Assembly: GCA_029547805.1 (NCBI GenBank)
Contig: JAKPOP010000014.1
Span: forward strand, 1-64,000
Origin: Deltaproteobacteria bacterium
GTDB lineage: Bacteria; Myxococcota_A; UBA9042; DTJE01
DNA length: 64,000 bases
Direction: 5' to 3'
Shown: positions 1-13,416 of the stretch, one piece after another
Layout: each line of letters opens with the position of its first letter
Position numbering within the stretch: the first letter of the stretch is position 1
The notes under the pieces: model-generated
What the model saw: the letters and a program-made list of their open reading frames with translations, nothing else
The model's database searches: none
Told to the model about the DNA's origin: nothing
Translations under genes and position numbers: made by a program

Positions 1-425
1 TGGGCCTCGGCGTCCTCGATGCGTTTCAGCGCCGCGAGGAAGTCGCCCCATCCGACCTCATCGATGGCCCGGCGAGCGCAGAGCCTCGCCACCTCGGCTT
101 CCTCCTCGATCTCCTCCAGGTGCTTGGCGAACTCCAGCCAGTCGCCCTCGTAGGACTCCACGATGCCCTGAACCTCCTCGGCCAGAGCGCCGAGGTCGGG
201 CTCCAGGGAGGCCCGGACCTCCAGGCCGTCCTCGGCGACGGCCAGGATATCCAGTCCAGCCTCCTTGTAGCCGTATCCGGGGATCCAGCCGGCCACGGCA
301 TCCAGATGGCAGCGCCCGATTTCCTCGGCCTTCTGCAAGGCCTCGGACATATCCGAGGCCTCGATATCGGCCGAGAACAGCTCCGGATTCGCACAACGCT
401 CACGGAACTGGACGTGGAACTTCAT
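1..425 (-). CDS. Unknown acidic protein, 3' end cut by window edge
   Basis: The minus-strand frame opens with ATG at 425-423 and stays open to the left edge, so at least 141 residues are seen and the C-terminus is missing. A good ribosome binding site (GGAGG, 6 bases upstream) supports this start. The protein begins MKFHVQFRERCANPELFS and is rich in Glu and Ala, with a probable helical stretch near residues 85-115. I recognise no domain. It lies 13 bases downstream of the 79-residue gene at 439-678 on the same strand, so the two probably form one transcript. Small acidic genes of this kind are common accessory cargo of phages and integrative elements, and its position beside an attachment-like repeat fits that, but no function can be given. 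Confidence 0.7.
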   Translation of the reverse strand, partial: MKFHVQFRERCANPELFSADIEASDMSEALQKAEEIGRCHLDAVAGWIPGYGYKEAGLDILAVAEDGLEVRASLEPDLGALAEEVQGIVESYEGDWLEFAKHLEEIEEEAEVARLCARRAIDEVGWGDFLAALKRIEDAEA

Positions 426-438
426 GGCAGCCTCCTCC

Positions 439-678
439 TCACGCCCTGGCCTGAAGAAACTCGATCACCATGGAAGCCCGGCCCCGAGAGAGGCCACCGA
501 TCGGATTCTTTCCCAAGCAGGCCTTCACGGCCTCCGCCGAGGAGCGGTAGCCAGCCCTCCTGGCGAGGGCCTCGATGTAGGCCATCTGTCGTTCGGTCGC
601 CGGGGCGCCCTCACGGACGACCCCGGGAGCGCCCGACCGCCGGACCTCATCCATTCGCCGCTGTTCGTGCTTTGTCAT
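439..678 (-). CDS. Small accessory protein with ATERQ...LSRGRAS motif
   Basis: A 79-residue protein starting at ATG 678, chosen over the longer frame because GGAGG sits 5 bases upstream and the extra upstream residues look non-coding. The C-terminal two thirds (ATERQMAYIEALARRAGY ... GLSRGRASMVIEFL) resembles a small helical module seen in many phage and integrative-element proteins, with the pattern 'Q..(Y/F)I..LA...G' followed by 'LS...AS.LI..L'. The match is by eye to a known pattern, not a database result. The function of that module is not established. It is the first gene of a two-gene minus-strand unit with the gene at 1-425 and transcribes away from the integrase. Confidence 0.7.
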   Translation of the reverse strand: MTKHEQRRMDEVRRSGAPGVVREGAPATERQMAYIEALARRAGYRSSAEAVKACLGKNPIGGLSRGRASMVIEFLQARA

Positions 679-824
679 CTCAGCCTCCTCAATCTCCCCC
701 GGCCCCCATGCCAGGGGTCCGGGGTCGTCGCCCCGGACAAACCCATCTTGCCACCCTTTTTCGGCCAGCGCAAGCCCGGTCAACCCGCCTTTTCGGACGC
801 CAGTGATTCCGGTGAGTTACAGCG

Positions 825-843
825 GTCGGATCCGAAGTCCGAT
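825..843 (+). repeat. Left attachment-site copy (att core)
   Basis: The 19 bases GTCGGATCCGAAGTCCGAT are identical to 8274-8292 inside the tRNA-Arg(TCG) gene and contain the 10-bp palindrome TCGGATCCGA. The integrase gene begins 131 bases to the right. This is the expected arrangement for a tyrosine-recombinase element inserted in a tRNA anticodon region. The bases to the left of this copy do not look like the displaced 3' half of a tRNA. Immediately to its right, overlapping by one base, is TTGACA (843-848) with a weak TTTACT (868-873), which may serve as an integrase promoter. Confidence 0.85.
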
Positions 844-900
844 TGACATATCGTAAAAAGCCTTTGCTTTACTTGCCTTTGGCGTCTGCTTTGACATGCC

Positions 901-921
901 GCTACCCCGTTTGCTACCCTT
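901..921 (+). repeat. GCTACCC direct repeats, left end
   Basis: Two copies of GCTACCC(C/T) start at 901 and 913, 12 bases apart, between the left att core and the integrase start. The same motif recurs in groups near the right end of the element. Helical-turn spacing and placement at both ends suggest integrase arm-type binding sites. Their presence here is one reason to reject the upstream ATG at 896 as the integrase start. Confidence 0.6.
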
Positions 922-973
922 CGGGTGTTTCGGTCGCTTTCGACTGGAACGGGTTGCAACCGGGGGTGCCGAT

Positions 974-2206
974 ATGGCGAAACGGCATGACGAAGGCAGA
1001 CAGATAGGCGGGATTCTCAACCGCAACGGCCATTGGTACGTGAAGATCAAGATCCGTGGCCGCCAGGTATGGAGGTCCGCCCCGACCAAGGAAGACGCGC
1101 AACTGCTGTTGGGTCGCCTGCGGGAAGACGCCGCCAGGGAACGGGTCGGGCTCCCGAAGGTGCAACGGGATCGGCTGGCTGACTTCGTCCCGAAATACCG
1201 GGCATGGGCGAAGGCGCACAAGCGTTCGTGGGACCGGGACGAATTGAGCCTGCGGCCCTTGCTGGCGGCCTTCGGGTCCCTGCGACTGTCCGAAATCACC
1301 AAGTCGCGGGTGGAAGCCTACATGCGCGACCGTCGCCAGACGGAAACCCTTGTGAGCATCGCCCGGAGGGAAGCCTTCGCCCGTCGCAAGGCCGCCGGAA
1401 TCCTGCCCCGGAACGCGAAGCCGCCCGCCCCGGCCACTTTCTCCCCCGCGTCGGTCAACCGCGAGGTCGCCTGCCTGCGAAAGATTCTGTCCTACGCGGT
1501 GGAATGCGGCGAACTGCAAGAAAACCCCCTGCGGGGGATGCGCATGTTCCCCGAGGCTCCGGGGCGGGTGCCCACGTTGGGGCCGGAAGATGAGGCCGCC
1601 TTGGTCGCCGCCATGCCCCCTTGGCTCCGCCCTTTGTACCGCCTTGCGGTCCTGACGGGTCTTCGCCAGGGGGAAATCGTTTCCCTTCGTTGGCGCCATG
1701 TCGATTTGGACGGGGGAATCCTGATGGTCGAGGATTCCAAGTCCGGCGAGTCGCGGCGCGTCCCATTGCACCCGTCCCTTGTGGACATGTTGCGGACTCT
1801 CCGCGCGGCTTCGGAAGCCGCGATCCTGGTGCGCGTCAAGGGCGACGAACTGACGGCCCGGCGCGAACTCCCCGATGCCTACGTTTTCGCCATGCCCCGG
1901 GGGAACCCGCCGGAGTCGTCCAGTATTTCGCACGCATTCAAGCGCGCCGCCCGGAAGGTCGGGCGACCCGACCTGCGTTGGCATGACACGCGACACCTGG
2001 CGGGGTCCGCGTTGCTCGGAACGGGGGCGTCTCTCCCCGAGGTCGCCGTGATGCTTGGACACAAAACGCTTGTAATGTCCAGGCGCTATGCCCACGTGAA
2101 CCCGACCCGCCTTCGGGACCTGGTCGCCCGGATGCCCGCGCCCGCGGCGGCGACCGGGCCGGATACGCCCCCCGTGAAAGCCGCCCGGCAGGAGGTGACA
2201 CCATGA
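974..2206 (+). CDS. int: Tyrosine recombinase (integrase)
   Basis: A 410-residue site-specific recombinase of the phage integrase family that would insert and excise the element at tRNA-Arg(TCG). The catalytic domain shows the full set: Arg231 (TGLRQGEIVSLRW), His337 and Arg340 (WHDTRH), His363 (LGHK) and nucleophile Tyr372 (RRYAHVN). The N-terminal 190 residues form the arm-binding and core-binding (SAM-like) regions. I chose ATG 974 (MAKRHDEG) because the frame upstream, from ATG 896, overlaps the GCTACCC repeats and has no ribosome binding site; a GGGGGTG lies 7 bases before 974. The next gene starts inside the stop codon (ATGA), implying coupling. Identity as an active integrase is very likely; directionality control is presumably by the HTH protein at 3190. 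Confidence 0.95.
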   Translation: MAKRHDEGRQIGGILNRNGHWYVKIKIRGRQVWRSAPTKEDAQLLLGRLREDAARERVGLPKVQRDRLADFVPKYRAWAKAHKRSWDRDELSLRPLLAAFGSLRLSEITKSRVEAYMRDRRQTETLVSIARREAFARRKAAGILPRNAKPPAPATFSPASVNREVACLRKILSYAVECGELQENPLRGMRMFPEAPGRVPTLGPEDEAALVAAMPPWLRPLYRLAVLTGLRQGEIVSLRWRHVDLDGGILMVEDSKSGESRRVPLHPSLVDMLRTLRAASEAAILVRVKGDELTARRELPDAYVFAMPRGNPPESSSISHAFKRAARKVGRPDLRWHDTRHLAGSALLGTGASLPEVAVMLGHKTLVMSRRYAHVNPTRLRDLVARMPAPAAATGPDTPPVKAARQEVTP

Positions 2207-3081
2207 CGCAGGAAAAGCGCCGCCACCCGTGGAAGGAACGCATCGAAGCACCGTTAGAGCAACCGGAGGTCAAAAAGGCGCTGTTGGAGGTCAACTACAA
2301 CATGGGGGTCCGAATCCTGGTCCCCGAGGAAACGCTGGAGTTGACCTGGGAGGTCGCGAGACTCGCCCGGGAGATCCTGGCCCTGGTGACCTGCATTGAC
2401 CCCGGCAAGGCAGGCACTGTCGAAAAGCTTGAGGCCGCCGCTGTCCTTGCTGGGGTCATACCAAGGGTTGATATTGACCCGTACGCCCCCATGCCTGCGG
2501 ATCGTTGGCAGTCCAACGAAGGCTACCGCGCCATGGTGAAGCGACATGACATGCTGACCCTTGAATTGCGGACGCGAGAGGTTCACCGGGTATCTCGTAA
2601 TGGGGTGCCCCCTTGGGTCGCCAAGGCTACCCAGCACAACGGTTGGCTCTTGATTGTCAATCGGATGGTGGAGGCGGTCGAGGAACTGGCGGCCCTGCGC
2701 CCGCGGTTGCGGAACTTCCGGTACAAGGTCAAGGACCGCGCCAGAGTGTTGAAGCCCGGTTGCGCACGGCCGGGCGTGAAAATGCCCGTTGAAAGGCAGG
2801 GGGGGAACAAGCAAGAGGGGGATCGTGCCTTCGCGGCGGACCTTGCCCTCTACCTTCGGGATCCTGGCGTTCTGCCCGCCCCGGAATGGTGGACGCCCGC
2901 GGAGTTGGCGGCCCTTTTTCGCGCCCTTCGCTTGGAGAGGCTCGCGACCGCGGAAGCGGTGAAGGCCCTCATTCGACAACATGAACCCGCCGAGGAACAC
3001 CGAGCCCGACGCCGCCGCGACCCCCTCTACTTCCCGCACATTCCCAAGCCGCCCGCCCCGCAGGGGGTAAACCCCCCCTGA
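2203..3081 (+). CDS. Unknown element protein
   Basis: A 292-residue protein whose ATG overlaps the integrase stop by 4 bases. I recognise no family. It is mostly helical in appearance and basic towards the C-terminus, which ends in a Pro-rich tail (HIPKPPAPQGVNPP). The sequence includes a charged segment near residues 165-210 (RNFRYKVKDRARVLKPG). It has no signal peptide and no clear transmembrane segment, so it is probably cytoplasmic. Coupling to the integrase suggests a role in recombination, maintenance or element regulation, but that is inference from position only. Confidence 0.8.
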   Translation: MTQEKRRHPWKERIEAPLEQPEVKKALLEVNYNMGVRILVPEETLELTWEVARLAREILALVTCIDPGKAGTVEKLEAAAVLAGVIPRVDIDPYAPMPADRWQSNEGYRAMVKRHDMLTLELRTREVHRVSRNGVPPWVAKATQHNGWLLIVNRMVEAVEELAALRPRLRNFRYKVKDRARVLKPGCARPGVKMPVERQGGNKQEGDRAFAADLALYLRDPGVLPAPEWWTPAELAALFRALRLERLATAEAVKALIRQHEPAEEHRARRRRDPLYFPHIPKPPAPQGVNPP

Positions 3082-3189
3082 AAAAATCTGAAGTTGGCCC
3101 TCTTTTTCGGATTGATTGGCAACCCTAGCCTCAAGGCATGGATGCCGCCCGCGGTGGACGGCAACCGCACCCTAACCAGAGGTTGGAAC

Positions 3190-3408
3190 ATGACGAATCA
3201 AGCCCCGAAGGACTTCGGAACCCTGTTGACCACGAAGGAAGCGGCGGCCCGGATGCGGGTGTCTGTTGACTACCTCGTGACGCTCGCCCTCCGGGGAGAG
3301 ATTGCGAGCATCAAACTCGGGACCAAGCCCGGGCAGCGGGGCGGACGACGCCTGTTCCCGGAGTCCGAGATCAACGCCTGGCTGGCGCGGAACCTGCGGA
3401 CCGCCTGA
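3190..3408 (+). CDS. Helix-turn-helix excisionase-like protein
   Basis: A 72-residue protein. ATG 3190 is preferred over 3094 because AGAGG lies 7 bases upstream. The core reads LLTTKEAAARMRVSVDYL ... RGEIASIKLGTK ... RRLFPESEINAWLARNL, the MerR-like winged-helix layout of excisionases and 'helix-turn-helix domain 17' proteins: recognition helix, wing with a basic hairpin, and a terminal helix. Such proteins bind DNA, often the arm sites of the cognate integrase, and act as recombination directionality factor or repressor. About 108 non-coding bases separate it from the gene upstream and 110 from the next, so it may have its own promoter, though I see no clear -35/-10 pair. Confidence 0.8.
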   Translation: MTNQAPKDFGTLLTTKEAAARMRVSVDYLVTLALRGEIASIKLGTKPGQRGGRRLFPESEINAWLARNLRTA

Positions 3409-3518
3409 AGGACAGACCCCGGCCGGTGGCAACGGCACGGGGGACGAACATTGAACCGGTGAATCGATTCTACCGTCCCCCCGTGACTTCTGCAACCGCC
3501 CGGGAACGAGGTGACGCC

Positions 3519-4529
3519 ATGCCCCGCGGCGATCGTGCCTTCCTCGAGGTGACGGCCCGGAACCCCTGCCCAATCTGCGGCGGAAACGGATGGTGCCGGG
3601 TGTCCCGAGAGGGGGCCGTTGCCCTGTGCCGGCGAGAGGCCCGGGGAGGCCGCGCCCGGGTGGACCGTGCCGGAGTCGTCTACTACGTCCACCGGCTCCG
3701 CGGCGGCGACCCCGTCCCGATCGGGGACCTGGTCTCCCGTCGGGTGGATGCCCTGTTGGCCGGCCGGGTCCCCTTCCTGGCACCGGTGGAGGTCCGGGCG
3801 GAGGTCTACGCCGCGACCCTCCGCGCCATGACCCTGGACGCGGCGCATCGGGACGCCCTGCGAACCCGAGGACTACCGGACACGGAGATCGACCGGCGCG
3901 AGTATCGGACCCTCCCGCCGGCCGGCCCCCCCTGGACCCGGGAGGCCCTGGCGCGCGCCCTCGAGGACCGCTTCTCCCCCGAGGTCCTGGCGGGCGTCCC
4001 GGGCTTCGTCCGCCGGGAGTCGCGACGCACGGGCCGGGGATACCTGACCCTGACCGGCTCGCCCGGGCTGTTGGTGCCGGTCCGCGACCTGGTCGGGCGG
4101 ATCGTCGCCCTGCTGTCCCGCCCCGACACACCCCCAAGATCCGGGGTCAAGTACCTGTGGGTGACCTCCAACATGCCTGGATGCCCGGGACCGAGTCCGG
4201 GAAACCTGGCGCACGTCCCGTTGCCCATGTCCGACAGTCCCGAGGCGCGGGGCGGGACCGTTGCGGTCTACGAGGGGATCTTGAAGGCCGATATCGCCGC
4301 CGCCCTGGACGCCGCCCGCCTGCCCGCCGTGGGCATTCCCGGGCACAATGGGTGGTCTGCCGCCCTGCCCATCCTTCGCGACATGGCACCGCGAACGGTC
4401 CGCTACTTCCCGGACCCCGACGCCTGGCAGAAGCCGGAGGTCGGGGCGAGCCTGCGGGCGTTCTGGCATGCCTTGAAGGCCGAAGGCTTCACCCCCGAGA
4501 TTGGGAGGTTCCCCGATGCAGAAGCCTGA
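3519..4529 (+). CDS. Primase-like protein with zinc finger and TOPRIM (DUF3854-like) domain
   Basis: A 336-residue protein starting at ATG 3519 (GAGGTG 6 bases upstream). The N-terminus has a Cys cluster CPIC-x5-C-x10-C (Cys17, 20, 26, 37) resembling the zinc-binding head of DNA primases. The C-terminal part carries a TOPRIM-type fold signature: the acidic VYEG(I/L)LKAD element around residues 249-257, then VGIPGHNGW, then the acidic YFPDPDAWQKPEV. This layout is typical of DUF3854 proteins of phages and integrative elements, thought to prime DNA replication or to assist a partner helicase. The last 14 bases overlap the helicase gene, so the two are very likely translationally coupled and act together in element replication. 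Confidence 0.8.
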   Translation: MPRGDRAFLEVTARNPCPICGGNGWCRVSREGAVALCRREARGGRARVDRAGVVYYVHRLRGGDPVPIGDLVSRRVDALLAGRVPFLAPVEVRAEVYAATLRAMTLDAAHRDALRTRGLPDTEIDRREYRTLPPAGPPWTREALARALEDRFSPEVLAGVPGFVRRESRRTGRGYLTLTGSPGLLVPVRDLVGRIVALLSRPDTPPRSGVKYLWVTSNMPGCPGPSPGNLAHVPLPMSDSPEARGGTVAVYEGILKADIAAALDAARLPAVGIPGHNGWSAALPILRDMAPRTVRYFPDPDAWQKPEVGASLRAFWHALKAEGFTPEIGRFPDAEA

Positions 4530-6528
4530 TGATGCACGCGCCGCGGGCGCAACCGAGGAAGTCCTGTCCGGCGAGGTCGCGGAGGCCGTCGTTGCCGCGA
4601 CGCCCCGCGCCCCCGGCACACCCCTTTCCGTCCCCGAGATCAAGGCCCTGATCGATGCGATCGGGCAGGAAGGGGACACGGCCCGGCAAGGGCAACGAAT
4701 CAACGCCGAACTGGTCCCCGTCCTTGCAACCCTTGACCCGATCGAAGCAGAAGCCCTCATGGACCGCGTGTGCCAGGTTGCGCCGTTCCTGAAACGCGCG
4801 ACCTTGGACCGTGAGGTTTCCAAGGCCCGGAAGGCCCAGACCCTCTTGGTCGCGACCAGCGGCGAGGTGGAGATCGAAAACGCCCGGGAATTGACGGGGA
4901 TCCTGACCCTGGACAACGGGACAGTCTACGCCCTGGCCCGGCGGACCCTCCGGGTCGGGACCGACACGGTCCGCGCCATGTCCGTTCTGACGTGGAACGG
5001 GACCGAGGCCCGGATCCTGGACGGGACCGGTGACAACCCCGTGCCGGTCCTGCCGGACGGTGCCGAAATCCTGTTGACCCCCGGATCCCTCCCCGAGCGG
5101 TGCCCGACCCTGGCGACCCTGCGGCGGTTTGCTGACGGCGAACGGGTCCCCGGACCTGTCGTCTTTGACCGCGTACAGCGCTTCGTTCGGCACTTCCTTG
5201 ACCTCGGGGCGTTCCCCGGGGGACAGGACACCGCGGAACTGGTGTTGACCGCATGGTGTCTGTCGACATGGTGGCAGCGCCCGGCCCGCCTTGTCGCATC
5301 CTATGTTCAATTCACCGGACCGAAGGGTTCTGGCAAGTCGCGCGCCCTGGCCGTGGCGGCCGAGGTGGTCCTTGCCGGCGAACTTGTCCTGTCGTCGACC
5401 TCGAATGCGGCCCTCCGCGACCTGTGCGCCGCTGGCGCGTGCCTGCTGTTGGACGAGGCCGAAGACCTGGCGCACGGACGCCCTCAAAACGAATCGGGGC
5501 AGGATCGCCGGGGGCTGTTGCTCGGGGGCACGCGCCCGGGGATGAGTTGGGCACTCAAAGAGGCGACCCCGGATGGCCGGTGGGAGACACGCCGAATCCC
5601 GATTCACGGCCCCCGCGGGTTCGCATCCATCGCGATTCCCGAGGCCGTCCTTGGGTCCCGCGCCCTGCGGATCCCGATGGTACGAACGGCGGACCCCGCC
5701 CGCGCCCGCCGCGACCCTGCCCTTGAAGGTGACTGGCCGGAAGGCGAAACGCGCGAAGACCTTCGGGACGCCCTGGCCCTGTGGGCGCTCGGCACCCTCC
5801 GGGACGCCCCCATGTGGTACGGCAAGGCTCGGGAACGCCTGCCGGTCTTCGGCCGCGACGCGGAGCCCTGGCTACCCCCCGCCGCCGTGTGTCTCGCCGT
5901 TGACGCCGAAGACGGGGGCGACCGATTCGGGCGCATCATGGAGGCGATTCAAGGGGAGTCACAAGAAGACACCCCGGACCGGGAACGTGAGGTCCTGGCG
6001 GCCCTGGTCCGCCTGTGGGAATCCGGCACCCTGGCACCCGGCCCCAACGACACGCGGATCGTGCCTGTCTCCGAGGTCGCGGAGAAACTGGACGACCGAC
6101 GCGAAGACGAAGACGGCCCCCCTGACGAAGATGCGAGGCGGCGAAGGCATAGGCTTCGCATCGCCGTCGGGAAGACGCTTCGTGACTTGCGCATCGGAGA
6201 GATTGGACGGTTGCATGGAGGCAAGTCGGCGTTCTACGTCGAAGGCCCGATCCTCCGCGAGAGGTGCGAAGCCTACGGGGTCCCCCCTCCCCCCGACCTC
6301 ACCAACCTCACCCGACCAATCCCCATGCGGGATTCCGGCTTTTCTTTGACCTCTCCCGAGTCCGATGATGGAGAGGTAGGGAAAAGTGCCGCAGACCCGC
6401 GCCAGAAGCGGCCGGGTGAGGTCGGTGAGGTTGACCCAAGGGGGGATCCGGGCAAAGACGAAGTTTCCGGCCTGGCGATTCCTGACCCGTCCCTGAAACC
6501 CGGCCCCCGCCTGGAGGTGGTCCTATGA
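4516..6528 (+). CDS. P-loop ATPase, element replicative helicase-like
   Basis: A 670-residue protein. Walker A is GPKGSGKS at 268-275 and Walker B is LLLDEAED with Asp313-Glu314. Downstream is a segment containing LLLGGTRPGMSWALKE, which resembles the sensor region of DUF3631/DUF927-type helicases used by phages and integrated plasmids. The N-terminal 100 residues are helical and charged. The C-terminal 100 residues resemble a winged-helix region followed by a disordered tail. ATG 4516 is chosen, with GGGAGG 7 bases upstream. It overlaps the primase-like gene before it and the TubC-like gene after it (ATGA). Together with the primase-like protein it probably melts and replicates the excised element; this is inferred from family and context. 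Confidence 0.8.
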   Translation: MQKPDDARAAGATEEVLSGEVAEAVVAATPRAPGTPLSVPEIKALIDAIGQEGDTARQGQRINAELVPVLATLDPIEAEALMDRVCQVAPFLKRATLDREVSKARKAQTLLVATSGEVEIENARELTGILTLDNGTVYALARRTLRVGTDTVRAMSVLTWNGTEARILDGTGDNPVPVLPDGAEILLTPGSLPERCPTLATLRRFADGERVPGPVVFDRVQRFVRHFLDLGAFPGGQDTAELVLTAWCLSTWWQRPARLVASYVQFTGPKGSGKSRALAVAAEVVLAGELVLSSTSNAALRDLCAAGACLLLDEAEDLAHGRPQNESGQDRRGLLLGGTRPGMSWALKEATPDGRWETRRIPIHGPRGFASIAIPEAVLGSRALRIPMVRTADPARARRDPALEGDWPEGETREDLRDALALWALGTLRDAPMWYGKARERLPVFGRDAEPWLPPAAVCLAVDAEDGGDRFGRIMEAIQGESQEDTPDREREVLAALVRLWESGTLAPGPNDTRIVPVSEVAEKLDDRREDEDGPPDEDARRRRHRLRIAVGKTLRDLRIGEIGRLHGGKSAFYVEGPILRERCEAYGVPPPPDLTNLTRPIPMRDSGFSLTSPESDDGEVGKSAADPRQKRPGEVGEVDPRGDPGKDEVSGLAIPDPSLKPGPRLEVVL

Positions 6529-7076
6529 CGACCTGGGAGTTGATCGGCCAGATGCGAGACCGGGGCGTGACCCTCGTTCTGGAAGGGGGAAGCCTGCGGT
6601 GCCAGGGACCCGGCGAGGTCCTGACCCCCGAGGTCCTTGCCGAACTGCGGGCGCACAAGCAAGCCGTCCTGGAGGCCCTGGCCGGCGAATGTGAGGGGTC
6701 CCCCGGACCGTGCCTGCGATGTGGGCGGGCGGCCCGGCCCGATTGCGGCGCTGAACGCCTGCTGACCGGCGAACTGGTCTGCGGCGATTGCCTGACTCCC
6801 GAAGACCTGGTGGCCGGGTCCGTGCCGGTCGCCGGCGGAGGCGCCCCGGGAGACAACCCCCACGGTCCCCGAAGACCGGCTGACCCCGGGAGTATGGCCG
6901 GGTCCTCCCCGGAGGTCATGGAGGGGGGTAGACCTCGCGGGCGCGTTCCGTCGCCAGACACGACCCCAAAAGCACGATTGACGGGAGAACCCCCGGCGAG
7001 GTCCAGGGGGTCGGAGGTCGGAGGTCAAGGCATTCATGCCCTCGGGGCGACGATGGAGGTTGGACCATGCGTGTGA
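6525..7076 (+). CDS. TubC-like docking-domain protein with Cys-rich segment
   Basis: A 183-residue protein starting at the ATG overlapping the helicase stop. Residues 1-50 (ELIGQMRDRGVTLVLEGG ... LTPEVLAELRAHKQAVLEAL) match the pattern of TubC N-terminal docking domains, which are best known from NRPS/PKS assembly lines but also occur as stand-alone or leader modules in mobile-element genes. Residues 62-90 hold a possible zinc-binding segment (CLRCGRAARPDCG ... CGDCL). The remaining 90 residues are Pro/Gly/Arg-rich and look disordered. No biosynthetic genes are nearby, so a docking role between element replication proteins is more plausible than secondary metabolism. That role is speculation. 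Confidence 0.7.
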   Translation: MTTWELIGQMRDRGVTLVLEGGSLRCQGPGEVLTPEVLAELRAHKQAVLEALAGECEGSPGPCLRCGRAARPDCGAERLLTGELVCGDCLTPEDLVAGSVPVAGGGAPGDNPHGPRRPADPGSMAGSSPEVMEGGRPRGRVPSPDTTPKARLTGEPPARSRGSEVGGQGIHALGATMEVGPCV

Positions 7077-7891
7077 AGCGTTCCGAACTGCCCCGGATTC
7101 TCGGGGTGTCGCGTCAACAGGTTCACGCCGACATCAAGGAAGGATTCTACGGTCCCGGAGACGACGGGCTGTTTGACCTGGCGGAAGTCCTCCGCGGGCG
7201 GTCGGCCAGGGACCCTTTCCGCGGGGGTCCCCACAAGGCCCCGGCGACCCCTCACCCGGTCCTTCCGGGCGGCAGGCGCCGCACCTTCGACCCTGACGCC
7301 TTGGCCGTCGCTGCTTTCCGTTCGCTTGTGGAGGCCGTGGGAAGATACCTGGACGCTCGGTTTCGGGACCCTCCCGCGCCCTGGGGGACCGAGTTTCGGG
7401 AACTTCGGGAAGCCGCCGCGGAGGCCATCGCCCTGTTCCCCGCCGGCCCGGAACCCTTGCGTCGTCCCCTCTACACCCTGGCCGGGCTTGTCCAAACAAT
7501 CGGGGATACCACGGATCGGATGCTGGAATGGCTGGAGGTCTACGAAGACAATGGGGGCGGCCCCGCGGCGATGGTCTTCCCCGCGGAGTTGGGACACTTC
7601 CTGGACCTGGTCTTGTGCGCCTGGCGCGGGTTCTTCGAGCGGGTCCTGAAAGGCGCCGAAGCCGGACGGTTGCCCGAGGTCCCTTTGGGAAATGGGAAAT
7701 GGATGACCTTGCCCTTCGCGCCGAAGGACCTGGACGAAGTCCTTGACCTGTTCCGGCTCGCCCTGGCCGCCATGGAGGATGCGGAAATGGAGGGGGACAC
7801 CAGGCCGCCGGGTCCCGACCGGAAGCCTGACCGACCCCCCGCCCCGCTGCTACCCCCTTGCTACCCCGAGACCCCGGAAGTCCAGTCCTGA
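7067..7891 (+). CDS. Unknown element protein with N-terminal HTH
   Basis: A 274-residue protein starting at ATG 7067, overlapping the previous gene by 10 bases. The first 45 residues (RSELPRILGVSRQQVHADIK ... LFDLAEVLRG) look like a helix-turn-helix of the kind found in phage Nu1-like or MerR-like proteins. The middle and C-terminal parts are helical and unrecognised, and the last 30 residues are Pro-rich. The 3' end of the gene contains two GCTACCC repeats. It is the last gene before the right attachment site. A DNA-binding role, possibly at the repeats, is a reasonable guess but not shown. Confidence 0.7.
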   Translation: MRVKRSELPRILGVSRQQVHADIKEGFYGPGDDGLFDLAEVLRGRSARDPFRGGPHKAPATPHPVLPGGRRRTFDPDALAVAAFRSLVEAVGRYLDARFRDPPAPWGTEFRELREAAAEAIALFPAGPEPLRRPLYTLAGLVQTIGDTTDRMLEWLEVYEDNGGGPAAMVFPAELGHFLDLVLCAWRGFFERVLKGAEAGRLPEVPLGNGKWMTLPFAPKDLDEVLDLFRLALAAMEDAEMEGDTRPPGPDRKPDRPPAPLLPPCYPETPEVQS

Positions 7892-8148
7892 CACCATTTT
7901 CGTTCCTGGAGCCCGTAGACGGCCCGAGAAGGCCCGGGACCGGCGGGGCGATGGATTTCCCCGTCCCCGCCCGACAAAGGGCTTCCAGGAGGCACCGGGA
8001 CCCTTCCCAGGCCCGATTCCTTCCCGATAGGTCGGGTTGCTACCCCGAGGGGGTAGCAGTTTCGGACCATCGGACTTGCTGATTGCTGGAATATCAATCC
8101 CTTACATGGGGAAAATCTGCTACCCCGCTGCTACCCCTTTTGCTACCC
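7849..8148 (+). repeat. GCTACCC repeat cluster, right end
   Basis: Direct copies start at 7849, 7860, 8119, 8130 and 8142, spaced 11-12 bases within each group. A further pair at 8037-8059 is arranged as an inverted repeat (TTGCTACCCC, then GGGGGTAGCAG, two bases apart). With the two copies at 901-921, the motif brackets the element. Arm-type integrase sites are the simplest reading. Iterons of a replication origin are an alternative, because the element encodes primase-like and helicase-like proteins. Apart from these repeats and a hairpin at 8159-8184, the gene-free stretch 7892-8241 shows nothing I can interpret. Confidence 0.6.
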
Positions 8149-8158
8149 TTTGCCCCCC

Positions 8159-8184
8159 GAAAACGCCCTTTTTGGCCGTTTTTC
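8159..8184. terminator. Possible bidirectional terminator hairpin
   Basis: An imperfect inverted repeat, GAAAACGCCC then GGCCGTTTTTC around a T5 loop, ends in a T run on the + strand and in TTTTC on the - strand. It sits 58 bases beyond the 3' end of tRNA-Arg(TCG) and 268 bases after the last element gene, so it could stop both transcripts. One mismatch and one bulge weaken the call. Confidence 0.4.
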
Positions 8185-8241
8185 AGACGAAACGGGTTCG
8201 GGATGGGTAGGAAGGACTTGCAGGAAATCATTGAACTTTTC

Positions 8242-8317
8242 TGGCGCGCCCGGAGGGACTCGAACCCCCAACCGTCGGATCCGAAGTCCGATGCTCTATC
8301 CATTGAGCCACGGGCGC
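8242..8317 (-). tRNA. tRNA-Arg (anticodon TCG)
   Basis: A 76-base cloverleaf with encoded CCA. The acceptor stem GCGCCCG pairs with CGGGCGC. The anticodon loop is CTTCGGA with anticodon TCG (reads CGA). The T arm contains GGTTCGAGTCC-type bases. The anticodon stem-loop coincides with the 19-bp att core at 8274-8292, so the 3' half is supplied by the integrated element. It is the last of three tRNAs transcribed leftwards. Confidence 0.95.
8274..8292 (+). repeat. Right attachment-site copy inside tRNA-Arg
   Basis: This copy is identical over 19 bases to 825-843 and covers the anticodon stem and loop of tRNA-Arg(TCG). The match ends exactly at 8273/8293, which defines the crossover region of the element. 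Confidence 0.85.
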
Positions 8318-9237: not shown

Positions 9238-10856
9238 GGGCTTTTTTGCGAGCCGCCGACGCCTTGGGGAAGGCGTCCCCGGAACCCGGCGGAACCCCGA
9301 GATCTCCACCAGACCATTCCCAACAGGACCAGCAGCAGCACGATCAGACCATCGCCCCTGGCCCCGGCCCGGCACCCGCCGCCGGACCCGCCGCCAGGAC
9401 CGCAGTCCCCCTGGCAGCCCCCCCCATCGGGAAGCACCACCAGGTCGGCCCCACTCCCGACCTCGGGCCCCTCCACCGCGTCCCGGGTCCCGACCACGTC
9501 GCTCCCGCCGCCGGTCTCCCCGGTGCCGCCATCGGGGGCACCCCCGACGGGATAGCAGCGGGGATGCTCGTCGCCCTCCCGCTTCTCGCACCGGTACCCC
9601 CCCAGGCACTGGCTCTGCTTGATGCACTTGTAGTCCCACCACCAGGCGTTCCCCTTCTCCCCCACCAGCCAGGCGGTGTACCAGTCCAGGAACTTCGCCC
9701 GGAGCGGCCGGGGATCCCCCTGGGGCATCGTGCCGCCGCCCATGTTGAAGGAGATCTCGCCGACGTCGGTCTTGTCCCAGGTCCGTCCGCCATCCAGCGT
9801 GATCATGTCCACGGCACGGTAGATCGGCTGGTCTCCCCCGCCCCCGCCGCTGGACCCCGACAACCCGGTGTCCGCCGCCCCGACCAGGTGGCCGTGGTCC
9901 GCGTCCTGCCAGAACATCCCCGCCAGATAGGACACCCGGATCGGCACCTTCATGAACATGTTGAGCGTGCCCACCTGGAAGTCGGTGCCGGTGTCCTGCC
10001 AGGATCCCCCCCCGTCGGTCGTCCGGTAGAGCAGCACCTCCTTGGCCCGGCCCTTCTCCTGGTCATAGCGGCCCATCGCCAGGAACCCCGTCCGGTCATC
10101 CTCCAGGAAGAAGATCGGACAGGCCAGCCTGCCCCCGGGACCATCGGCCTGGGAATCGGGCGGCAGCGTGGCCAGCACCCTCCAGGAGGCCCCCCCGTCG
10201 GTGGTCCCCAGCACCACCACGTCGCCGTAGGAGACCAGGGTCTGCATCTCCTCGGTCTCCTGCTCCGACACGACGGCCCCGGCCGCCCACCCCCGAAGCC
10301 GGTCCCGGAAGAACAGGCAGCCCAGGTCTGCCCGGGTCCCGGTGGAGACCTGGGTCCAGGAGGCCCCTCCATCGGTGCTTCGCCAGGCCCCGCCGCCCGA
10401 ACCGACGGCCACCCCCTGCCCGTCGCCGAGGGCCGCCAGGGCGCCGACCTCGCCGTCGCCAATCCCCGGCAGGGCGACCTTCTGCCAGGTGCCACCGTTG
10501 CGGGTGAACCAGATGTCCCCGCCCAGGGCCACCATGCCGCTGGTCAGGCTCTCCATCCCGATGGCGGCCACGAAGGACCCCATCGGCCCCGACAGGTTGC
10601 CCTGGATCGACTGCACGGTGGCCCCGCCGTCCTGGCTCCGGTAGAGGACCGGCTTCATGGACGGGAACATGCCGCCGGTCATCTTGACCTGGACGCCCCC
10701 GGTGAAGAACAGCCGCGGCGACAGGGCATCGACGGCCATCAGCATGTCGTCGGGATCGGTCGGTCGCGGAATCGGCTTCCAGTCGGTCCAGGCCCCCCGG
10801 GCCTCGACCCCACCCAGCAGTGCCATGGTCAGGATGATCACAGACCAGCGCCTCAT
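9234..10856 (-). CDS. Secreted BNR/Ycf48-like repeat protein with MYXO-CTERM-like tail
   Basis: A 540-residue exported protein. Residues 1-20 ([20 protein letters not shown]) are a signal peptide. The body holds repeated 'S.DGG.(S/T)W' Asp-box motifs ([49 protein letters not shown]) typical of beta-propeller BNR/Ycf48-like proteins. A Cys-containing segment ([19 protein letters not shown]) follows, then a Gly/Asp-rich linker. The end, [12 protein letters not shown] then [14 protein letters not shown] then RSRG, has the Gly-Cys/TM/Arg layout of MYXO-CTERM sorting signals, followed unusually by about 20 more residues. The role is unknown, probably surface-anchored. The start at ATG 10856 has GGAGG 11 bases upstream. 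leuS is divergent. Confidence 0.85.
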
Positions 10857-10931
10857 GGGTTTCTTCCCCTCCTGGAGACCTCACATCCCCCCACGCACAC
10901 GATCCGGGCATCCGCCCGGCGAACAACGGTC

Positions 10932-10937
10932 TATAAT
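10932..10937 (+). promoter_or_regulatory. Possible leuS -10 box
   Basis: A perfect TATAAT lies 52 bases before the leuS start in an otherwise GC-rich spacer. No convincing -35 is seen 16-18 bases upstream, so this is a tentative promoter. Confidence 0.35.
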
Positions 10938-10989
10938 ATGCCGCTTTCGCGGGGGGATCGCCCCTCCGACTTCCTGCAGCGGGGTGGAG

Positions 10990-13416
10990 ATGGACGCCGA
11001 GGAGACGACCTGGGACCCTTCGGTCATCGAGCCGAAATGGCAGCAGTACTGGCTGGAACACAAGACCTTCCGGGCCCGGGACGACTCGGACCGCCCGAAG
11101 TTCTACGTGCTGGACATGTTCCCCTACCCCTCGGGGGCCGGCCTCCACGTCGGGCACCCCGAGGGCTACACCGCGACGGACATCGTGGCCCGGTACAAGT
11201 GGATGCGGGGCTTCGAGGTCCTGCACCCGATGGGCTGGGATGCCTTCGGGCTCCCGGCGGAGCAGTATGCCCTCCAGACGGGCATCCATCCGGCCATCAC
11301 GACCCGCCGGAACATCGACAACTTCCGTCGGCAGATCCGGATGCTGGGGCTCGCCTACGACTGGGACCGGGAGATCGCCACCTGCGACCCCTCCTACTAC
11401 CGGTGGACCCAGTGGATCTTCCTGCAGTTGTTCCGCCGGGGGCTCGCCTACCAGACCGAGATCCCGGTGAACTGGTGCCCGGCCCTGGGAACCGTGCTGG
11501 CCGACGAGGAGGTGACTCCCGAGGGCCTCTCGGAGCGGGGAGGCTTCCCCGTGGAGCGGCGCCCCATGCGCCAGTGGATGCTCCGGATCACCGCCTATGC
11601 CGACCGGCTGCTGGAGGACCTGGAGGGACTGGACTGGCCGGAGCCCATCAAGGAGATGCAGCGGAACTGGATCGGCCGGTCCGAGGGCGCCGAGGTGGAC
11701 TTCCCCCTGGAGGGTCACCGGGAGACCCTCCGGGTCTTCACGACACGGCCCGACACGCTCTTCGGCGTCACCTACATGGTGCTGGCCCCTGAGCATCCCC
11801 TGGTCTCCCGGATCACCACGGCGGACCGCCTGGCGGAGGTCGAGGCCTACCGGCAGGCCGCCGGCCGGATGAACGACCTGACCCGGACCGACGCCACCCG
11901 CCCGAAGACCGGCGTCTTCACCGGCGCCTTCGCGGTGAACCCGGTGAATGGCCAGCGGGTCCCGGTCTGGGTGGCCGACTACGTGCTGATCTCCTACGGG
12001 ACCGGGGCCATCATGGCGGTCCCGGCCCACGACCAGCGGGACTTCGAATTCGCTCAGGCCCACGGGCTGCCCATCGTCGAGGTGGTCTCCCCCGACGGCC
12101 GCCCCCGGGGCATCGGGGACGCGGCCTTCTGCGAGGAGGGGGTCGCGGTGAACTCGGGGCCCTACGACGGACTGCCCACCCGGGAGTTCCAGCAGCGCAT
12201 CACCGCGGACCTGGAGGCCCGGGGGATCGGGACGCGGGCCGTCAAGTACCGCCTCCGGGACTGGGTCTTCTCCCGGCAGCGCTACTGGGGCGAGCCCTTC
12301 CCCCTGATCCATCGCCCCGACGGCACCGTGGAGGCCCTGCCGGAGTCGGACCTGCCGCTGACGCTGCCGGAGGTGCCCTCCTACCGGCCCGCGGGCAACG
12401 GCGAGTCGCCCCTGGCGACGATCCCCGAGTGGGTCGAGGTCCGGGACCCGACCACCGGCCAGGTGATCGGCCGCCGGGAGACCCACACGATGCCCCAGTG
12501 GGCCGGCTCCTGCTGGTACTACCTGCGCTACCTGGACCCCCACAATGACCAGCGGCTGGTGGACCCCGAGAAGGAGCGGCGCTGGATGCCCGTGGACCTC
12601 TACGTCGGGGGGGCCGAGCACGCGGTCCTGCACCTCCTCTATGCCCGCTTCTGGCACAAGGTGCTCCACGACCTCGGGGTCGTCTCGACGCCGGAGCCAT
12701 TCCGGAAACTGGTCAACCAGGGCCTGATCCTGGGCGAGAACGGCCAGAAGATGTCCAAGTCCCTGGGCAACGTGGTGAATCCCGACGACGTGGTCCGAAC
12801 ATATGGGGCCGACGCGATGCGGGTCTACGAGATGTTCATGGGGCCCCTGGAGGTGGTGAAGCCCTGGAGCACCCAGGGCATCGTGGGCGCCCGGCGGTTT
12901 TTGGACCGGGTCTGGCGGGTTGCGACGGGTCCTCTCACGGACGAGGAGGCGCCATTGCCCCTCCAGCGACTGGTGCACCAGACGGTCCGGAAGGTGACCC
13001 AGGACATCGAGCGGATGCGCTTCAACACCGCCATCGCCCAGATGATGACCCTGGTCCACGAGGTCCAGAAGACCGAGGTCCGGCCCCGGGAGGCCGTCGA
13101 GACCCTGGTGCTGCTGCTGTCGCCCTTTGCCCCCCACCTGGGGGAGGAGCTCTGGCAGCGCCTGGGCCACGAGCCGCCCATCGTCCGGGTCCCCTGGCCG
13201 ACCTGGGACGAGGCCCTCTGCGCCGAGGACGAGGTCGAGGTGGTGATCCAGGTCAATGGCAAGGTCCGGGACCAGGTGAAGGTCCCCCTGGACACCCCCG
13301 AGGAGGACCTGGAGCGTCTGGCCCGGGCCAGCGAGAAGGTGCAGAGACACCTGGGGGGACGGGAGCCCCGGAAGGTGATCGTGGTGAAGAACCGTCTGGT
13401 CAACCTGGTCGGCTGA
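10990..13416 (+). CDS. leuS: Leucyl-tRNA synthetase
   Basis: An 808-residue class I aminoacyl-tRNA synthetase that charges tRNA-Leu in the cytoplasm. The HIGH signature appears as HVGH at 53-56 ([13 protein letters not shown]) and the KMSKS loop as KMSKS at 587-591. The CP1 editing domain lies between them (for example [14 protein letters not shown] and [15 protein letters not shown]). The C-terminal anticodon-binding helices and the end [10 protein letters not shown]-type motif ([13 protein letters not shown]) are present. The start at ATG 10990 (MDAEETTW) is chosen because the longer frame has no homologous residues. Slightly shorter than the E. coli enzyme (860), but all domains are seen. 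It is followed 50 bases later by a PHP-domain gene on the same strand. Confidence 0.97.

Follow-up and report, generated by a model that had tools for sequence, protein, structure and literature searches.

A minimal integrative element at a tRNA-Arg anticodon in an uncultured Myxococcota family, with a candidate docking domain in its replication module

How does an element of seven genes, with no recognisable structural or transfer gene, come to occupy the anticodon stem-loop of a tRNA gene, and what would replicate and move it? The question is raised by positions 825-8292 of the window analysed here, the first 64 kb of a 297-kb contig (C19) in a Myxococcota genome (G000; 4.08 Mb, 32 contigs). 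We consider, with moderate confidence, that this stretch is best explained as an integrated minimal element, most likely a PICMI-like satellite, that carries a replication module with probable docking.

The element and its tRNA sites

The element is bounded by an exact 19-bp repeat, GTCGGATCCGAAGTCCGAT, which has no third copy in the assembly and corresponds to the anticodon stem-loop of tRNA-Arg(TCG) plus one nucleotide per side, read on the minus strand:

825..843, plus strand: left att core, 19 bp, a copy of the tRNA-Arg anticodon stem-loop without the displaced tRNA 3' half on its left
8274..8292, plus strand: right att core, 19 bp
8242..8317, minus strand: tRNA-Arg(TCG), the target gene, intact, its 3' part coming from the element

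Its GC content is 67.3%, against 70.4% in the remaining window, and an Rfam scan of the window returned tRNAs only.

Related genomes show homologous elements at filled sites, and empty sites as well. A member of another genus (G191) carries a homologue in the same tRNA-Arg gene, with identities of 88% for the integrase, 85% for the helix-turn-helix (HTH) protein, 82% for the primase, 81% for the ATPase and 64% for P0007, the product of the last gene. Sibling elements occupy tRNA-Lys(CTT) in G011, which belongs to the same genus as G000, and tRNA-Phe(GAA) in G176. The tRNA-Arg(TCG) gene of G011 directly abuts the enolase gene and is thus empty, where G000 and G191 are filled; conversely, the tRNA-Lys gene of G000 is uninterrupted where that of G011 is filled, and the G011 flanks (4-2758 and 9631-13303) match the sequence on either side of the empty G000 gene at 79% and 88%, respectively. 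These reciprocal sites, together with the G191 homologue, indicate that the element moves and that the choice of tRNA gene differs among closely related integrases. Judged by its occupied sites, a single tyrosine integrase family hits the anticodon stem-loops of Arg-TCG, Lys-CTT and Phe-GAA tRNA genes, and we regard 825-8292 as almost certainly an integrative element that targets a tRNA anticodon.

Seven co-directional genes with intact frames lie between the cores, the first overlapping the second, and the fifth the sixth, by ATGA. From left to right, with the proposed docking tail discussed below, they are:

974..2206, plus strand: P0001, tyrosine integrase (PF00589, 8e-28), with the R in TGLRQGE and the motifs HDTRH, LGHK and RRYAHV
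2203..3081, plus strand: P0002, no assigned family, overlapping int and in the same position as PICMI iolg
3190..3408, plus strand: P0003, HTH_17/excisionase-family protein, AlpA/Xis-like (PF12728, 3.8e-11; TIGR01764, 3e-10)
3519..4529, plus strand: P0004, predicted zinc-finger and TOPRIM-like primase subunit; a GTG start at 3426 is also possible
4516..6528, plus strand: P0005, P-loop ATPase, helicase-like, with the C-terminal tail RLEVVL
6508..6525, plus strand: codons for RLEVVL, the proposed docking tail, which overlap the P0006 start codon and its Shine-Dalgarno sequence
6525..7076, plus strand: P0006, beta-hairpin docking domain (residues 1-55), zinc ribbon (residues 60-98) and disordered tail (PF18563, 2e-11)
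7067..7891, plus strand: P0007, protein with an N-terminal HTH and a helical remainder, the variable last gene

Library scans of the seven proteins recognised no capsid, tail, relaxase or transfer gene. Nor is there among them a relaxase or FtsK-like translocase, which would mark an integrative and conjugative element, its actinomycete counterpart or an integrative mobilizable element; a D5-type alpha primase-helicase with psu/sid-like genes, the mark of P4-like elements, gave no matches, and PADLOC gave no defence match.

The putative integrase arm motif, TGCTACCC, has nine matches in the window against 0.69 expected. Eight of the nine lie inside the element, ahead of int or close to the tRNA end:

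901..919, plus strand: putative left-arm integrase sites, CTACCCCGTTTGCTACCC, kept upstream of int in an alignment of four elements
7848..7866, plus strand: two TGCTACCC sites, possibly right-arm, inside the end of the P0007 gene
8038..8058, no strand assigned: inverted pair of TGCTACCC arm sites
8118..8148, plus strand: three right-arm TGCTACCC sites in a row

Paired copies upstream of int are common to G191, G011 and contig C47 of G176, and copies near the tRNA end are also found in G191 and G011. Arms bearing such sites at both ends are the attP layout of tyrosine integrases.

Much of the preliminary description of this locus was borne out. It had proposed a minimal integrative element resembling satellites, with exact att repeats and seven genes free of structural and transfer functions; relatives indeed have the gene set between att repeats at tRNA genes, and G011 provides an empty site, so the description withstood both of the refuting conditions that it had set. 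The claim that the element restores the tRNA 3' half holds at the right end, where the tRNA is intact, but the left core lacks the displaced half.

A replication module with a candidate docking domain

Comparison of the siblings separates a conserved core, comprising the integrase, the HTH_17 excisionase, the primase and the N-terminal 110 residues of the ATPase, from parts that are exchanged, namely P0002, the ATPase domain, the TubC_N protein and the last gene. Homologues of P0002 occupy the same place in G011 (36%) and G191 (25%), and the C47 element of G176 has none. P0007 has a homologue only in G191, and a different last gene is present in G011 and C47. The two unknown proteins that the preliminary description saw as marking a distinct family, together with the TubC-like protein, are those encoded at 2203-3081 and 7067-7891; they do not form the defining core but belong to the least conserved parts. 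Its set of integrase, HTH, primase-like and helicase-like proteins stood in part through Pfam, which identified the integrase and HTH_17, and in part through motifs, by which P0004 and P0005 were assigned.

A CPIC zinc motif and acidic residues of TOPRIM type are present in P0004, whose homologue in G176 matches DUF3854 only weakly (E 0.24). The sequence of P0005 contains the Walker motifs A (GPKGSGKS) and B (CLLLDEAED) but matched nothing in the library scans. The N-terminal 110 residues of P0005 are common to DUF3631, DUF927 and primase-fused ATPases, and the sibling ATPase domains are DUF3631 in G011 and DUF927 on contig C71 of G176. On contig C200 of G176, a single 1064-residue protein joins a DnaG-like primase (phrog_6444, 5.5e-41), a P0005-like N-terminal region and an ATPase. 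Because this fusion supports the pairing, we read P0004 and P0005 as a split primase-helicase; both very probably act in replication. We do not claim homology between the ATPase domain of P0005 and those of the DUF3631 siblings, since hhalign of the full protein aligned the N-terminal domain only. The ATPase of genome G309 resembles DUF3987 by eye, and Pfam gave no confirmation.

The gene that follows the ATPase encodes a small protein, P0006, that matches TubC_N (PF18563) with 44.3 bits against a cut-off of 26. Its AlphaFold2 (AF2) model has an alpha-beta-beta-alpha-alpha arrangement (helices at residues 3-12, 35-43 and 45-55, strands at 16-20 and 23-28; pLDDT about 90), and its nine best Foldseek matches in the PDB are all beta-hairpin docking domains (EpoB, AerJ, enacyloxin, Kj12 and TubC), with E-values of 0.015-0.2 and probabilities of 0.84-1.00 for this short domain and an rmsd of 1.0 to 8aqq. 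The RLEVVL terminus of P0005 resembles the docking peptides of nonribosomal peptide synthetases (NRPS) and ends exactly where P0006 starts. Binding in the Kj12 pair, with a Kd of about 15 uM, involves no more of the partner than its five C-terminal residues, which join beta2 as an additional strand (PMC6195595). In the C47 element of G176, a P0006-like zinc ribbon is fused directly to the ATPase C-terminus and TubC_N is absent, as expected if TubC_N does no more than tether the ribbon. Sequence and model together make it probable that TubC_N docks the ATPase tail: the beta-hairpin domain of P0006 probably binds RLEVVL by beta-strand addition, as NRPS subunits do, and its zinc ribbon would thereby be tethered to the P0005 motor. 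P0006 also has a C-terminus of its own, TMEVGPCV (7046-7073), in which AF2 predicts residues 175-179, with low confidence, as a paired strand; this terminus might compete for docking or dock onto its own protein, or might be Shine-Dalgarno-encoded sequence only.

PF18563 was run over 379 Myxococcota genomes. Those non-NRPS TubC_N genes that were inspected, along with the G191 and G176 C167 cases, sit directly behind replicative-type ATPases of several families. The identification of a TubC-like protein in the preliminary description stands, but the protein is not peculiar to this element, being a widespread partner of Myxococcota mobile-element replicative ATPases. The motif [LIVMWF][ED][EVA]x(1,2)[LIV]-COOH matches 12 of 16 ATPase tails (RLEVVL in the window; RVEVLL, RVEAVL, EIEEVLL, EIEEHLL, DLEEAIV, EWDEVEL, ELEEGEL, GWEEGEL, FEEGEL, DVEEGHL and AFEVEL) and none of 255 background open reading frames (ORFs). 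Among D5 ATPases it was present in 5/5 with a TubC_N neighbour versus 0/23 without (p 1e-5), among AAA_25 ATPases in 2/3 versus 0/27 (p 0.007), and in the two pooled in 7/8 versus 0/50 (p 2.7e-8), p-values that are indicative because related sequences are not independent and G092 is counted twice. NRPS subunits in these genomes have tails of the same kind (EIEEGEL, EEEEGEL and DVEEVVL), of which EIEEGEL and DVEEVVL are nearly identical to the D5 helicase tails ELEEGEL and DVEEGHL. Searches of plasmids and phages with P0006 or a TubC protein gave NRPS matches, one unannotated Nostoc match or nothing, so the survey is limited to Myxococcota.

NRPS-type docking through beta-hairpin domains and short linear motifs (SLiMs) might be a general principle of mobile-element replisomes, in which unrelated ATPases (window type, DUF3631, DUF927, D5 and AAA_25) independently gained tails that recruit exchangeable TubC_N modules, a proposal that we judge could fall either way. 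Megasynthases and mobile elements may have exchanged the docking system. A literature search, with bioRxiv preprints and most subscription papers outside its scope, found no paper on docking in mobile-element replication, and the probable use of NRPS-type docking to build such a replication complex is undescribed in the literature searched. The docking reading offers an explanation for the occurrence of 'TubC docking' genes in mobile elements. If it is true, a fastener known only from antibiotic assembly lines also builds DNA-replication machines, and these elements are a new source of orthogonal docking pairs.

Weighing the explanations

In the satellite-like cycle that we favour, P0003, perhaps with P0002, would direct excision, P0004 and P0005, acting as a split primase-helicase, would replicate the excised circle, which a helper phage would then package. 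Help from P0002 is predicted because of its analogy with iolg of PICMI115. Dependence on a helper phage has about an even chance.

Several points weigh against this explanation. All the evidence is in silico. Neither a helper phage nor a packaging site or particle came to light, and no relative was found in IMG/VR with P0005, primase-alignment, P0001, P0009 or P0006-alignment queries; one such search gave 28-30-residue matches to the primase zinc finger only. There is no DUF3987/DUF5906 primase, and P0004 and P0005 have no Pfam match at E<=1. Four of the 16 tails are off-motif (GRLAL in G191, PDWFD in G295, EVFEP in G159 and GGGEA in G176 C167), the TubC_N protein of G191 being one picked up by a custom profile only, with no Pfam match. 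The first eleven tails served to define the motif, which left only those of G092 C238 and G283 as new, and F entered its first position once the G092 C238 tail was known. The tail codons overlap the Shine-Dalgarno sequence of P0006, which alone can favour Glu/Val. Finally, the left end is abnormal, in that GGTGAGTTACAGCG, immediately 5' of the left core, is not the expected tRNA 3' half.

A normal attL retains the displaced half, and four relatives do so: G191 (46 and 43 bp, at tRNA-Arg), G011 (55 bp, at tRNA-Lys), G176 C47 (at tRNA-Phe(GAA)) and G079 C111 (at tRNA-Lys(CTT), with an integrase 43% identical). No intact displaced half was found elsewhere in G000. Contig C19 begins 824 bp to the left of the left core, and the ancestral neighbour, enolase, is on contig C15, beside a second tRNA-Arg(TCG) that differs from the window copy in its 5' half and anticodon stem; because of the differing anticodon stem, C15 and C19 are not joinable with confidence. 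Either a second island separates the two, or one contig has a chimeric end.

Several observations were made at these and related ends. The first 1.7 kb of C15 (L067, 1-1749) is foreign-looking DNA of 55% GC that ends at the second tRNA-Arg(TCG) beside enolase and holds a sugar-isomerase-like gene with a Tat-type N-terminus; it would belong to the second island or the chimeric contig end. Window positions 1-824 hold two small minus-strand genes, P0009 (3-425) and P0008 (439-678), with a weak DUF3072 match; neither viral contigs nor 12 further genomes from the family contain relatives of P0009. In G191, an earlier integration has left its scar on contig C89 (L041, 4217-6034), where one displaced tRNA-Arg 3' half follows another at a distance of 1.77 kb; contig C248 of G060 has a similar scar that ARAGORN misreads as tRNA-Cys. 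The contigs G176 C47 (L087) and G079 C111 (L088) end inside their elements, of which only the left end is sequenced.

Alternatively, the locus could be an integrating plasmid-like element that excises, replicates and moves by transformation or borrowed conjugation machinery, with no phage involved. This is possible but less likely than not: plasmids often carry DUF3854-like primases related to P0004, no gene here has solid homology to a phage gene, and viral contigs contain no relatives. However, the element has no relaxase or identifiable oriT, its size and gene order match PICMI satellites, and the related primase/ATPase modules on G176 C167 and C200 adjoin phage terminase genes.

It is also conceivable that TubC_N does something else and that conservation of the tail is a by-product of the overlapping gene's Shine-Dalgarno sequence. 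In most pairs the TubC_N start codon shares bases with the stop codon of the ATPase gene (ATGA/GTGA), which places the Shine-Dalgarno sequence among the tail codons and biases them to Glu-Glu (GAGGAGG) or Glu-Val (GGAGGTG). As a control, we scanned 52 other gene pairs from the same loci with 4-nt overlaps (ATGA/GTGA). The motif was found in none and an L/I/V ending in two of them, whereas the 12 pairs with TubC_N from that scan, some of them NRPS pairs, had 7 and 10, respectively (indicative p 1.3e-6 and 2.7e-8), and the motif was present in 5/6 ATPase-TubC_N pairs. The occurrence of the same tails on NRPS subunits and the zinc ribbon-ATPase fusion in G176 C47 also speak against a by-product. 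By these counts the Shine-Dalgarno overlap alone does not explain the tail motif, and we consider the by-product account unlikely.

Still less probable is the idea that P0007 is small-terminase-like and diverts helper packaging, which would make the element a PICI-type satellite. Its N-terminal HTH resembles the small terminase (TerS) of G176 C167 (RDP[LF]RGG; pairwise E 3e-4), and there is a weak phrog_57 match (E 0.016), but the likeness is confined to the HTH (about 46 residues), the C-terminal part differs, the model is poor (pLDDT 59) with no PDB match, and in G011 and G176 C47 another gene takes the last position. With likeness at the level of the HTH only, we did not adopt a TerS identity. 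A decayed prophage remnant, to which an integrase, an excisionase and replication genes without structural genes might point, is very improbable given seven intact frames, a core 81-88% identical in G191 and the same compact order and small size kept in independent elements at different tRNAs.

Relation to known systems

The closest likeness of the favoured minimal element is to the PICMIs of Vibrionaceae. PICMI115 of Vibrio carries int, iolg (with an ATGA overlap with int), alpA, up1, prim and up2; its excision needs int, iolg and alpA, and its replication needs prim (PMC10803314). The window element has the tyrosine integrase (PF00589) and AlpA-like protein (PF12728) that mark a PICMI, and shares the size of 6-7 genes, the lack of capsid genes, the variable last gene and the order int, ATGA-overlapping gene, HTH_17/AlpA-type excisionase and primase; the int-overlapping gene is absent from some siblings here, as in some PICMIs. 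It differs in its target (a tRNA anticodon loop versus fis), in its split primase and ATPase (versus DUF3987/DUF5906), in an extra docking-domain/zinc-ribbon gene, in its Myxococcota host and in that no helper was found. With a different primase, target and host, it is not a PICMI by the published definition; it may stand for a second, parallel line of minimal satellites, or it may be an element that moves in some other way. The PICMI-like minimal satellite architecture is extended from Vibrio to an uncultured Myxococcota family, with clear boundaries and empty sites.

Phages and islands of tRNA anticodon loops likewise have the anticodon stem-loop as attB, supply the tRNA 3' part and carry multiple arm sites; the difference here is one integrase family over three tRNA genes within one bacterial family. 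The G176 C167 and C200 elements share a related primase and N-terminal ATPase region with the window element, and C167 a TubC_N-zinc ribbon protein, but are larger, with a serine recombinase and both terminase subunits. On these contigs (C167, L055; C200, L054), a serine recombinase-like gene, TerS (phrog_57 in C167), the large terminase (TerL; phrog_15), an ATPase and a primase occur with no head or tail genes seen nearby, and they may be phage satellites with their own terminase. A Thermomicrobiales contig (L076, 6994-9966) carries a distantly related primase-helicase fusion and, after it, an ORF that is terminase-like by eye.

The SLiM-docking-domain pairs of NRPS and hybrid polyketide synthase-NRPS systems (TubC, EpoB and Kj12; PMC6195595, PMC9113145) share with P0005 and P0006 the fold, the adjacency of the partner genes and an upstream protein that ends in an acidic-hydrophobic C-terminal peptide. 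In the mobile elements, by contrast, the docking domain is partnered by a replicative ATPase and is attached to a zinc ribbon or a short uncharacterised domain rather than to an NRPS catalytic domain.

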